34,997 nt of DNA from positions 1 through 34,997 of IMG/VR virus record IMGVR_UViG_3300032116_000705; one strand, 5' to 3'. This document shows, piece by piece, positions 30,111-33,813 of this stretch. The position numbers and the translations under genes are program-made. The stretch is from a virus. Numbering within the stretch: the first letter of the stretch is position 1; each line of letters begins with the position of its first letter. The notes under the pieces are model-generated. The model did not search any database and was not told the origin of the DNA. It worked only from the letters and a program-made list of their open reading frames with translations.

Positions 30111-30755
30111 TCAGAACGGAAGCGAATCGTCCATGTCGTTATCGTCTGGCGGCGGAATCTTGCTGAAGTCAGGCGGCGGGACGCGCTTGCCACTCGGGGC
30201 TGGCATCTTGACCTCGGGTGCCTTCTCCGCTGGCTTGGCTTCCGCAAGGCCGTCGGGCTGGATGCCCTTGTCCTTCCAGCTAATCCACACGGTTGCGGTC
30301 GCGGCCTGAATCGCCGCCGCGTCGAGGCCGTAGCCGTACTTCTGCGAGGTCTGCGCCAGATGCCCCGCCACCGCATCCCAGAGCATCAGATAGTTCGCCA
30401 GAATCGCATCTCGGCGCGGCTGGACGGCACCGCTAACGGCTGGCTTGGCTGGTTCCACGCGAGCCGTCGGCTTGGGGGCCGCTGGCTGGCTCCCTGCGTA
30501 GCTCACGCCCCAGTACGGCTTGGCCCCCTTCTTTGGGTTCGGGTCGCGGCTGAAGGTCAGGTTCATCCCCACCACGCTCGACTCGTCTAGCCCGAGCCGA
30601 TCCAACTGGCGGTCAGCGGACTGCTTGGGGAGGTACAGCGTGTCGGTGCCGTCCGAGAACAACACCTGCTCGCCGTAGTTCCCCGTGACGGTCTTGCACT
30701 CGGTGACGGTCATCGTGTGGGCGTCACCCTCGTTGATCAGCTTCAGAATTGCCAT
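30111..30755 (-). CDS. Single-stranded DNA-binding protein-like
   Basis: A 214-residue protein. Residues 1-88 are beta-rich (VTECKTVTGNYGEQVLFSDG) and suit an OB fold. A Pro/Ala linker follows, then a helical segment (DAILANYLMLWDAVAGHLAQ). The extreme C-terminus DDNDMDDSLPF matches the acidic SSB tip (DxxLPF/DDDIPF), by which SSBs recruit replication and repair proteins. No classical SSB signature is visible in the core, so it may be a divergent phage SSB. Confidence 0.72.
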   Translation of the reverse strand: MAILKLINEGDAHTMTVTECKTVTGNYGEQVLFSDGTDTLYLPKQSADRQLDRLGLDESSVVGMNLTFSRDPNPKKGAKPYWGVSYAGSQPAAPKPTARVEPAKPAVSGAVQPRRDAILANYLMLWDAVAGHLAQTSQKYGYGLDAAAIQAATATVWISWKDKGIQPDGLAEAKPAEKAPEVKMPAPSGKRVPPPDFSKIPPPDDNDMDDSLPF

Positions 30756-31031: not shown

Positions 31032-31266
31032 CGTAGCCTCGAGCGTAGCGGTCATCCTCGTAGTGCGCGGCTTTGGCTTCCTCTTTGCGGTCCCAGAGTT
31101 CTTCAAAGAGTTCTTCGTGTTGCTTGTCGGTCAGTTCGTGGTCGCACTCGGCCTCCTCGATATAGACCTCGTAGTCATGCGACAAACCGACCGACGGATC
31201 AGGCGGCGAGTAGTAGACGCTCACCTGCATTGGCAAACCGCACGTGGGGCAACCGACCGTTTCCAT
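31021..31266 (-). CDS. Small CxxC protein, first gene of the early operon
   Basis: An 81-residue protein beginning METVGCPTCGLPMQV, with a CPTC zinc-binding knuckle, then an acidic helical tail (ELTDKQHEELFEELWDRKEE). ATG 31266 is chosen because CACGGAGAC lies just upstream, the same leader as two genes near 27.3-27.5 kb. A promoter starts 29 bases upstream of the ATG. The family is not recognised. Confidence 0.65.
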   Translation of the reverse strand: METVGCPTCGLPMQVSVYYSPPDPSVGLSHDYEVYIEEAECDHELTDKQHEELFEELWDRKEEAKAAHYEDDRYARGYDDL

Positions 31267-31294
31267 AGGGTCTCCGTGTGAGGGGGGTGCCAAT

Positions 31295-31323
31295 AGAGTA
31301 ATGCCAAGACTTGGGGCTGTCAA
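31295..31323 (-). promoter_or_regulatory. Leftward sigma70-like promoter
   Basis: On the minus strand a perfect TTGACA (31323-31318) and TACTCT (31300-31295) are 17 bases apart. Transcription would start near 31288, giving a 22-base leader before the CxxC gene. The TTGACA is inside a GGGGCT/AGCCCC inverted repeat (31313-31330). It lies just downstream of a terminator, so the early genes would be expressed from here. Confidence 0.65.
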
Positions 31324-31330
31324 TAGCCCC

Positions 31331-31366
31331 CAAAAACAAACCCGCCGATCGGTCAGGATCGACGGG
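31331..31366 (-). terminator. Rho-independent terminator, leftward
   Basis: A 10-bp stem with one mismatch (CCCGTCGATC / GATCGGCGGG on the minus strand) around a six-base loop (31351-31356) is followed on the minus strand by TTTGTTTTTG. This is a good intrinsic terminator for transcripts arriving from the right. It sits eight bases before the TTGACA of the promoter. Confidence 0.7.
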
Positions 31367-31444
31367 CTTGGCAAGTCCCGAGGCTTCAGTATCCCCCGAC
31401 ACGGAGAGCGGGGACGTTGCGGCTGAATGATAATCCACCGTGCG

Positions 31445-31503
31445 GCGAATTGCAACGTGCGTTGTCATTTGTCGGTATCGCTAAACCTTTACCGACGATT
31501 CGC
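31445..31503 (-). ncRNA. Candidate small three-way-junction RNA element
   Basis: The 59 bases can close by GCGAAT/ATTCGC (outer stem), with two inner hairpins: GTCGGTA-N12-TACCGAC, and CAAC-GCAC-GTTG. A TATACT (31518-31513) just upstream on the minus strand could be a -10, and the terminator ends about 170 bases downstream. A transcript of roughly 175 bases is therefore possible. There is no known RNA family match by eye. The hammerhead core is absent. Confidence 0.4.
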
Positions 31504-31512
31504 AACACTTAA

Positions 31513-31518
31513 AGTATA
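31513..31518 (-). promoter_or_regulatory. Weak -10-like element
   Basis: TATACT on the minus strand matches five of six bases of the -10 consensus in an AT-rich pocket. No recognisable -35 lies 16-18 bases upstream (ATACTC at the 17-base position), so an activator or another sigma factor would be needed. Kept only because a terminator and structured element lie downstream. Confidence 0.25.
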
Positions 31519-31544
31519 GCGAAATGCTCTCTTTTGAGTATGCC

Positions 31545-31910
31545 GGGGCCATTTCCGGTCGTTACGCGGAATGGGTGGAGAGGTTGGTCGGAAGGCCAGC
31601 GGTGGGGCCGTCTGCGTGTCTACCCCGGCACAGGTAGAACTCCTTCGACGGGTAACCTGTCGGGGCCGTTGTCACCCCGTGTAACTCCCCATCGACTCCC
31701 CGAAACGACCGACCACGTTGTAGGCTGACAGAGCGTGGATTTGTTTTGATCGGGTGCGACAGGCACGGTCAGGATTGGTCGGTAGCCGTCCGTACGGCTA
31801 TCCAGCGGGAGACCGAGAGTAGGCCCGCTGTAAAACAAGAGGCCCCAACGTTCTCTCCTCTCGAAAGTCTGGACCCCCGTAGGGTTCAGAAGGAGATACT
31901 TGTTGGGGCC
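31545..31910. repeat. Spaced GGGGCC direct repeats
   Basis: GGGGCC occurs at 31545, 31604, 31662 and 31905: intervals 59, 58 and 243, the last close to four times 60. Copies three and four share more on the minus strand: GTGACAA then ACGGCCCC, with four bases (GAGA) inserted in copy four. An inverted GGCCCC at 31841 pairs with copy four. Binding sites or iterons are possible. Confidence 0.4.
31623..31665. other. Bulged stem-loop
   Basis: CCCCG + ACAGGT (31623-31627 and 31630-31635) pairs with ACCTGT + CGGGG (31655-31665), with a two-base bulge and a 19-base loop. The minus-strand loop carries AAGGAG. A TACCC/GGGTA pairing can compete with the stem. Confidence 0.5.
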
Positions 31911-31920
31911 GTTCTCTTGT
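31783..31920. other. Three consecutive stem-loops
   Basis: Hairpin 1: TAGCCGT-CCGT-ACGGCTA (31783-31800). Hairpin 2: CAGCGGG-N14-CCCGCTG (31803-31830), perfect. Element 3 (31835-31920): ACAAGAG/CTCTTGT and GCCCCAAC/GTTGGGGC as outer helices with a four-base bulge, then TCTCCT/AGGAGA, then TCTGGACCC/GGGTTCAGA with a G-U pair and a five-base loop. On the minus strand element 3 is followed by TTTT, so it might also end the transcript of the genes to the right. Four stacked helices in one element are unlikely by chance. Confidence 0.6.
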
Positions 31921-31983
31921 CACAACAGGCGCGATGCTTTCGAGGACACCGCACGGCCTAATCTACACCGATTCCTCAATCCG

Positions 31984-32271
31984 TCAAGCCGTGAAGCCGA
32001 TGCGTTTGCGCTTGGCCTCGGGCGGCATCCGCCAGTCCTCCAAGTCCTCCTCCTCCGCCACCTCAAACCCGCCGCCGTGCAACGATCCGCCGTCCACGAT
32101 TAGCTCCTCGTAGCCCGCCTGCACCAGCGTCCGCATCATATCCAGTAGCTCTTTGGCAACCGCCCCAGAATCAGTTGCCTGCACATCCGCAATCTCGATG
32201 GATAGGCCGTTCCGGTGGACGGAGACCGTGGCCTTGCGGTTCGTGAACGGGTTCGACTTGCGCCTAGTCAT
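31984..32271 (-). CDS. Small protein of unknown function, 95 aa
   Basis: ATG 32271 is taken as start; the longer frame is Arg/Cys shadow. The protein begins basic (MTRRKSNPFTNRKATVSVHR), has a helix DSGAVAKELLDMMRTLVQAG and ends with EVAEEEDLEDWRMPPEAKRK. It overlaps the upstream CxxC gene by eight bases and is the last gene before the non-coding region. No family is recognised. Confidence 0.6.
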   Translation of the reverse strand: MTRRKSNPFTNRKATVSVHRNGLSIEIADVQATDSGAVAKELLDMMRTLVQAGYEELIVDGGSLHGGGFEVAEEEDLEDWRMPPEAKRKRIGFTA

Positions 32272-32491
32272 CGGGCCACCCGTAAAGGACGCCGTTCCGC
32301 ACGATTTTCTCCATCGACGGCAGGTACCCATCGCACCACGGACACTTCACCCACGGCTGGGTCACGTCCTTCGACCGCCACCAGATCCAACCGATACCCC
32401 AGAGGTAGCCAATCTCCCCCCGATCCCGAGCGGCCTTGCGTTCAGGGCAGGGGATAGGCGACCAGTCACGGCAGACCGGGCGTTCCGTCAT
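32264..32491 (-). CDS. Small CPWC protein, 75 aa
   Basis: A 75-residue protein with VCRDWSPIPCPERKAARDRG, a Trp-rich middle (YLWGIGWIWWRSKD) and VKCPWCDGYL. Two Cys near the start and a CPWC pair suggest one zinc site. ATG 32491 overlaps the phosphoesterase stop (ATGA). The Trp-rich stretch might be membrane-associated. Function is unknown. Confidence 0.6.
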   Translation of the reverse strand: MTERPVCRDWSPIPCPERKAARDRGEIGYLWGIGWIWWRSKDVTQPWVKCPWCDGYLPSMEKIVRNGVLYGWPDD

Positions 32492-33813
32492 GGCTTCACC
32501 GTGGCGCGGGTCATGCCCACAAGATAGCCGTCGGCGTGGTAGGTGTAGGAGTCCATAGCTCTCGGCGCACCGACGTAGCCCTCGGAGGCGTGCCAACCGT
32601 CGGGCGGGCAAAGGGCTGGGTGCTGACGTATTGTCACCCCGCCGACCGTAGTGACCGCCGCCTCGGAGTGCCGGTGTCCGTGATGCACCTCACGAAGTAG
32701 CGTCTCGCCCCAATGCTGACGCGCCTCTAACGCCATCAACTCGCCCAAGTGCTTTTGTGCCTTGTCGCCGTGCGTTAACCCGATCAGGCACCGACCGTGC
32801 GTGACGTATTTACGGGTGGTATTGGTTGTGTTTATGGTGACGTTCGGGTGGCCTCGGAACTCCGCCGAGAGGATCTGCCGCAACGCCACGGTCATCACCG
32901 CATCGTGGTTGCCGGGTACCAACACGACCTCCGTGGTGGTCCGCTGGGCCATGTCAGATATGACATCACACAACGTCGAGACCGCTTCCTCAAGCATCTT
33001 CTCAACCCGCCCGTCGCGGTCGAGCGGCGTGCCTTTAGTGGTCGTGCCGTGCGGCGTATCGTAGTGCAACAGATCACCCAAGCACCACAGGGCCAGCTTG
33101 CCAGCGGGTTGCTTGGTATCCAGAAGCTCGGCTACCGACTCGCGGATCAGCCGCGTGGCGATCGAGATGTCGTAATCCTCCCAGCCCGTCTCCTTCCCCC
33201 ACGCATACTTGCCGATGTGCGGGTCCGCCAAGACAAGGGCCTGAAGGGTATCGCCTGTGACTTTCGTAACGCCCCGCGTTACTACTGGCTTGCGCTTGGC
33301 GTAGGCTCCTGCGATTAGGGCCTCGACCGCCTCCAACACGTTCGGCCCCGCCTTCGGCTTGAGCTTGACGAACACACGGTGCAGTTCGGTCGTGCTGACT
33401 TTGCCCGTGCTTGGGTCTTTGGTCGCCACCTCGTACTTGGTCGCCTGACTTTCCGCGACCTCAAACTTGGTCAGGTCCGCGCCAATGTGCGCGAGCAAGT
33501 CCTCAACCGTCTTGATCCGCTTGCCGTTGGCTCTGGCCTCGATGCCCGCCTCGCTCGCGGAGTGCTGGACCTCCTGCTCCGTCTCCTTCCCCGGCACATC
33601 AGGCAACGGCGTCTTGGGCTTCGGCCCGACCTTCCAGCCGTTCTTCTGCCGCACCATCTTGATTGACGCTTCGCCGCGCACAACCTTGCCGTCGTGGAAC
33701 TCCGCGTTGAGACGCTTCGCCGCATCCTCCGCGCTATACCCCTGCGCGGTCAACGCGGCACAACGCGCTAGCTCCTGTCTAGACCACCCGATATGGTCGC
33801 GGCGTAATGGCAT
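32488..33813 (-). CDS. Metallophosphoesterase (calcineurin-like)
   Basis: A 441-residue protein. Motifs in order: ADPHIG (196-201), CLGDLLHYD (244-252), PGNHD (300-304), THGDK (347-351), HHGHRH (377-382). These supply the two-metal phosphoesterase centre, as in Mre11/SbcD, lambda phosphatase and phage nuclease-like enzymes. Residues 1-60 (QELARCAALTAQGYSAEDAA, then VRQKNGW) resemble a helix-turn-helix, so it may act on DNA. No AGGA-type site precedes the ATG, and it starts 35 bases inside the end of the upstream gene, so coupling may drive translation. Confidence 0.85.
   Translation of the reverse strand: MPLRRDHIGWSRQELARCAALTAQGYSAEDAAKRLNAEFHDGKVVRGEASIKMVRQKNGWKVGPKPKTPLPDVPGKETEQEVQHSASEAGIEARANGKRIKTVEDLLAHIGADLTKFEVAESQATKYEVATKDPSTGKVSTTELHRVFVKLKPKAGPNVLEAVEALIAGAYAKRKPVVTRGVTKVTGDTLQALVLADPHIGKYAWGKETGWEDYDISIATRLIRESVAELLDTKQPAGKLALWCLGDLLHYDTPHGTTTKGTPLDRDGRVEKMLEEAVSTLCDVISDMAQRTTTEVVLVPGNHDAVMTVALRQILSAEFRGHPNVTINTTNTTRKYVTHGRCLIGLTHGDKAQKHLGELMALEARQHWGETLLREVHHGHRHSEAAVTTVGGVTIRQHPALCPPDGWHASEGYVGAPRAMDSYTYHADGYLVGMTRATVKP

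Follow-up and report, generated by a model that had tools for sequence, protein, structure and literature searches.

The window analyzed here, the whole of the IMG/VR viral record IMGVR_UViG_3300032116_000705 (34,997 bases), contains a gap of 717 bp (positions 31267–31983) between two minus-strand genes, one ending at 31984 and the other starting at 31266, both of which are kept in relatives. Close by lie a gene assigned to the PHROG DNA repair exonuclease group (32488–33813) and a second neighbor at 30111–30755. No conserved gene is found inside the gap, and 69 of the 74 insertions and deletions in relatives, counted against the window, are not multiples of three, so the reading frame is not kept between relatives and a protein-coding gene was rejected as an explanation. 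Stretches of the region retain ≈74–80% nucleotide identity where the exonuclease retains only ≈51–57% amino acid identity, and a core of 461 nucleotides folds with z-scores of −3.9 (plus strand) and −4.0 (minus strand) relative to dinucleotide shuffles. Together with the conserved flanks, these values support the proposal of an earlier note on this DNA that the region is selected: the gap is real, non-coding, and under selection.

Relatives were collected with the exonuclease gene and the second neighbor as bait, which yielded sets of 14, 43, and 13 loci, many of them on the same contigs. Within these loci, the gap is conserved as two blocks, which we term module A (about 31540–31830) and module B (about 31833–31957). 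Two degenerate DNA patterns drawn from module A were then used to search viral contigs, and A is present in 35 other IMG/VR contigs, or 36 records with the window. Seven further viral matches to the second pattern (L103, L104, L106, L109, L110, L111, and L113) were discarded as chance matches, as were L096 and L097, the only two matches to the first pattern among 84,980 GTDB genomes. No DNA match to the region was found among INPHARED phages, and a search with the terminase returned no close cultured relative (best identity 51%). So far, every known member of the A family comes from a viral contig, and the phages concerned are related. In the open-access literature, to which our search was confined, we found no description of this RNA.

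On the minus strand, module A (31830–31542), present in the 36 records, is predicted from covariation to form a pseudoknotted RNA of ≈290 nucleotides. Its helices were identified by an all-against-all covariation scan combined with a stem search and were evaluated on 22 distinct sequences in a plain MAFFT alignment, one not fitted to the structure. The resulting model has 14 helices, and five of the interactions are crossing (pseudoknot) interactions. Standard pairs occupy 95.5% of the cells, a percentage inflated because the helices were selected from these very sequences; the main evidence comes from the double changes. Compensatory double changes occur in 43 of the 74 pairs (222 cells, which are not independent because the aligned sequences are related). 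In 500 shuffles, neither the pairing nor the double-change values were ever reached, and sliding the partners by 1–3 columns lowers the pairing to 33–45%.

All five crossing interactions of module A show compensatory changes of their own. Three of the hairpin loops pair with strands far downstream: the P6 loop (31629–31625) with the 3′ end of the module (31546–31542) to form P1 (96.4% paired, double changes in three of five pairs), the P10 loop (31793–31789) with 31592–31588 to form P3 (four of five pairs, one of them divided between 11 CG and 11 GC), and the P5 loop (31671–31666) with 31602–31597 to form P4 (five of six pairs). In P12, the P11 loop pairs with 31770–31766, and CGGUC/GACCG is replaced by CGGUU/AACCG. 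Positions 31770, 31811, and 31822 change together in the same rows (C, G, G to U, A, A); this exchange of a C-G for a U-A pair in concert with 31822 suggests either a base triple or a switch between pairing partners. P8 (31754–31751/31702–31699), which crosses P2, has double changes in all four of its pairs, one of which reads GC in nine sequences, GU in seven, and AU in four on the minus strand.

The remaining helices vary in how strongly they are marked by substitution. The long-range helix P2 (31711–31704/31563–31556) is 98.9% paired and the P9 hairpin (31713–31738, with an invariant 5′ flank, CAAATCC) is 100% paired, each with double changes in three pairs. Double changes are found in seven of eight pairs of the P10 hairpin (31802–31795/31788–31781), in five of seven of the P11 hairpin (31830–31824/31809–31803), and in two of five in both the P5 hairpin (31679–31675/31665–31661) and P7 (31651–31647/31612–31608). 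The P6 hairpin (31639–31635/31622–31618) varies in length among relatives and is only 59.6% paired because the alignment shifts there. P13 (31689–31687/31606–31604) has zero double changes and is unproven. No U-run terminator was found at the end of A.

Module B (31952–31836, minus strand) has six helices, one of them crossing, as judged from covariation in 18 sequences; 91.5% of its cells are paired and 23 of its 37 pairs show double changes, values that none of 500 shuffles matches. Its helices are B1 (31952–31947/31936–31931), the crossing helix B2 (31944–31937/31867–31860), B3 in two segments (31919–31915/31840–31836 and 31910–31902/31849–31841), B4 (31896–31892/31858–31854), and B5 (31890–31887/31871–31868). 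Up to eight pairs join the loop of the first hairpin to a distant strand, CUCGAAAG/CUUUCGAG in the window and GUCAGAAG/CUUCUGAC in the relative L024. A covariance model of B detects weaker copies in L002, L038, L039, L048, L014, L112, and L050, with E values of 0.001 to 0.1 in the last three. No covarying helix linking A and B was found. The earlier note, which had counted at least six stem-loops, is borne out by the 14 helices of A and the six of B, most of which have compensatory changes. It had also proposed a comparison with relatives for covarying pairs; that comparison produced abundant compensatory changes in both modules and no conserved protein, and the reading of a selected structured region survived it. 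The repeated GGGGCC elements it described do exist, as four plus-strand copies at 31545, 31604, 31662, and 31905, but they are not a repeated signal, since every copy belongs to a helix of its own, as one of its two strands, and relatives such as L082 carry changes in two of the three that lie within A.

The strand of the RNA is indicated by two kinds of evidence. On the minus strand, G·U outnumbers A·C by 70 to 21 (30:12 in A and 40:9 in B), in counts that refer to cells rather than to independent events; judged by eye, a single B5 pair fits the plus strand better in four rows. A σ70-type promoter is predicted at 31987–31960 of the minus strand (TTGACG-N16-TAGATT), with its −35 box at 31987–31982, a spacer of 16 bases, its −10 box at 31965–31960, and a start expected near 31953. 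In 17 of 17 loci, the highest-scoring site within the 80 bases upstream ends 4–9 nucleotides before B, and its mean score is 7.5 versus 2.9 for shuffles; in the plus-strand scan upstream of A, the sites average 3.9 versus 3.4, their positions are scattered, and no fixed signal is seen. The wobble bias and the promoter scan thus indicate an RNA read from the minus strand and starting near 31953, and the plus-strand RNA of our first reading was dropped on the same grounds. We regard the presence of an RNA gene here, with this strand, promoter, and fold, as a prediction that is almost certainly correct. B and A together span ≈410 nucleotides.

The same observations bear on whether the gap is instead a DNA element made up of inverted repeats; the earlier note had allowed for a replication origin or a packaging site. 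Although a long non-coding gap rich in inverted repeats adjoins a nuclease gene, the wobble pairs favor one RNA strand, and the promoter lies at a fixed place. Furthermore, GC skew has no turning point at the gap, A is inverted in one relative, and it was not found in the related records L038, L039, and L046. Neither DNA function retains more than a very slight probability.

The arrangement of the two modules in relatives points to different roles for them. The start codons of unrelated open reading frames (ORFs) fall 2–12 nucleotides after B in nine relatives, and an ORF follows B at once in L038, L039, and L046. An ORF lies between B and A in six relatives (L002, L004, L005, L006, L025, and L045), and those found at this joint belong to different families (weakly DUF5843-like, C5 methylase, and N6/N4 methylase), so that the joint looks like a site of gene exchange. 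In the same six relatives, A abuts the stop codons with no room for a promoter before it; A would there be part of the mRNA 3′ end or be processed out. In L042 and L043, A stands alone and inverted relative to the operon, behind a site reading TTGCGG-N16-TATCTT. As B precedes start codons and A is able to stand alone, B is probably a leader at transcription starts, and A probably a separate RNA.

Between B and A, L014 (14239–14311) and L112 (7800–7883) each contain what we read as a tRNA-like fold, in which acceptor, anticodon-like, and T arms are present and a D arm is absent; it is not called by ARAGORN or by the Rfam tRNA model, and the minimum-energy fold shows the tRNA-like form for L112 and not for L014. 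The gene downstream of A also varies among relatives (a methyltransferase, tRNA-Gln, and others). A tRNA-Gln (TTG) follows shortly after A, in the direction of the RNA, at L031:13621–13691 and L037:13457–13529, and lies farther from A in three other loci. In L034, L040, L048, L050, and L051, a C5-methylase-like gene with a strong promoter-like site of its own directly follows A, and a terminator of the RNA would have scant space before it. A separate observation is that L011 and L014 have two small opposite-strand ORFs, ≈480–980 bases past the exonuclease gene, that resemble helix-turn-helix regulators and replace the RNA.

One explanation for the position of B is that B, and perhaps A, acts in cis on its own transcript, either by antitermination in the manner of HK022 putRNA or as a leader affecting translation or stability. 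B always lies within ≈10 nucleotides of the −10 box, unrelated start codons closely follow it in the nine relatives noted above, and the HK022 put RNA provides a precedent in that it acts from nascent phage RNA (PMC9378689). Like putRNA, B is a structured RNA, which the promoter scan places close to where a phage transcript begins, a likeness of position only (PMC9378689); in contrast to putRNA, B contains a pseudoknot formed by a loop, and either an ORF or another large RNA module comes after it. The cis-acting leader, however, accounts for B and not for A, which is found either behind ORFs or on its own. In addition, the window has no following ORF and has a terminator-like hairpin 200 nucleotides downstream, and A in L042 points against its operon. 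We therefore consider it unlikely, if still worth weighing, that cis action explains the element. Because the neighbors of A change and A can stand alone, we lean, by a modest degree, toward A acting in trans as a folded RNA rather than regulating its neighbor.

A different possibility is that A is a ribozyme, cleaving or splicing, for instance to release itself from ORF transcripts that contain it. Its compact multi-pseudoknot core and invariant loops would suit such a function, and processing would be needed in the six relatives in which stop codons abut A. However, A matches no Rfam ribozyme or intron family, and we found no conserved cleavage-like junction outside the fold. A ribozyme is therefore improbable, if less so than a DNA element.

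Among the covariance models of Rfam 15, none matches over its gathering cut-off except for tRNA genes elsewhere in three relatives. Weak matches to mir-2209, ASdes, and a frameshift site lie far below their cut-offs and were rejected. The group II intron domain model RF01998 gives nothing over its cut-off. GOLLD, a closed 14-mer RNA cage, has a length of ≈800 nucleotides or more. Its model (RF02032) matches none of 11 records at E ≤ 10, and that of ROOL (RF03087) matches none of 10 at the same threshold, a test in which control genomes were silent as well; the whole-library scan agrees. Both GOLLD and ROOL are phage RNAs that assemble into RNA cages, have no established role, and often occur near tRNAs; a tRNA may sit in the GOLLD linker, and ROOL has multiple pseudoknots and no known protein partner (PMC12286853). 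The RNA described here resembles GOLLD in being phage-encoded, large, and pseudoknotted, with a conserved 3′ part and a more variable 5′ part, and the tRNA in the GOLLD linker has a counterpart in the tRNA-like fold of L014 and L112. Unlike GOLLD, it is ≈410 nucleotides long, about half the length, and has different helices. With ROOL, it shares multiple pseudoknots, a phage origin, and frequent proximity to tRNAs, whereas B-A is smaller. OLE RNA, whose biochemical function is open, is likewise a large ornate non-coding RNA; it comes mostly from Bacillota (PMC12054373) and not from phages, and our region has no Rfam match. The A-B RNA family is new, in that it has no relative in Rfam 15, although structured phage RNAs as an idea are already known. 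In its way of life, this RNA may have its place among the large ornate RNAs of phages.

Overall, we think it very probable that the locus encodes a minus-strand phage RNA gene composed of a leader, B, and a knotted module, A, which more likely than not acts in trans. Transcription would start near 31953 from the σ70-type promoter and proceed through B and then A, ≈410 nucleotides in all. B would form a compact leader at the transcription start, and A (≈290 nucleotides) would fold separately, its hairpin loops pairing with distant strands, one of which is the 3′ end of the module. A could then bind a protein or a host machine, or could self-assemble as GOLLD and ROOL do. More tentatively, A might form the core of a phage RNA machine of a new class, either a ribozyme or a self-assembling particle that is comparable with GOLLD and ROOL yet unrelated to them, and that carries B as an exchangeable leader and accepts ORFs or a tRNA-like domain at the joint.

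To our knowledge, few known RNA families have so many pseudoknots supported by covariation. Several such multi-pseudoknot families are ribozymes, ribonucleoproteins, or RNA particles. The retention of an RNA of ≈290 nucleotides in ≈36 phage sequences, despite tight space, suggests an important role at the RNA level in infection. At this size, module A is accessible to probing, mutagenesis, and cryo-EM, and compensatory mutants can be taken directly from the alignment; it would be a compact test case for the function of GOLLD- and ROOL-type phage RNAs.

The minus strand downstream of A contains further signals. A promoter-like site, TTGCAA-N17-TATCAT (31455–31427), lies behind A, and a terminator-like hairpin (31366–31357/31350–31341) is followed by TTTGTTTTT, the whole spanning 31366–31332. 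The stretch 31332–31432 is conserved in L002 and L004–L010 and is 85–90% identical in several relatives, and the segment from promoter-like site to terminator-like hairpin (31455–31332) may specify a separate small RNA of ≈85 nucleotides. The terminator and promoter described in the earlier note thus have minus-strand counterparts. Of its several suggested roles, that of a structured RNA proved right, so its interpretation is partly supported: in place of a set of phage small RNAs, there is one two-module RNA and possibly this second one. A further promoter-like site, TTGACA-N17-TACTCT (31323–31295, minus strand), would serve the next gene, which starts at 31266, and an imperfect palindrome, TTCGC...GCGAA (31499–31524), between A and the next promoter is possibly an operator.
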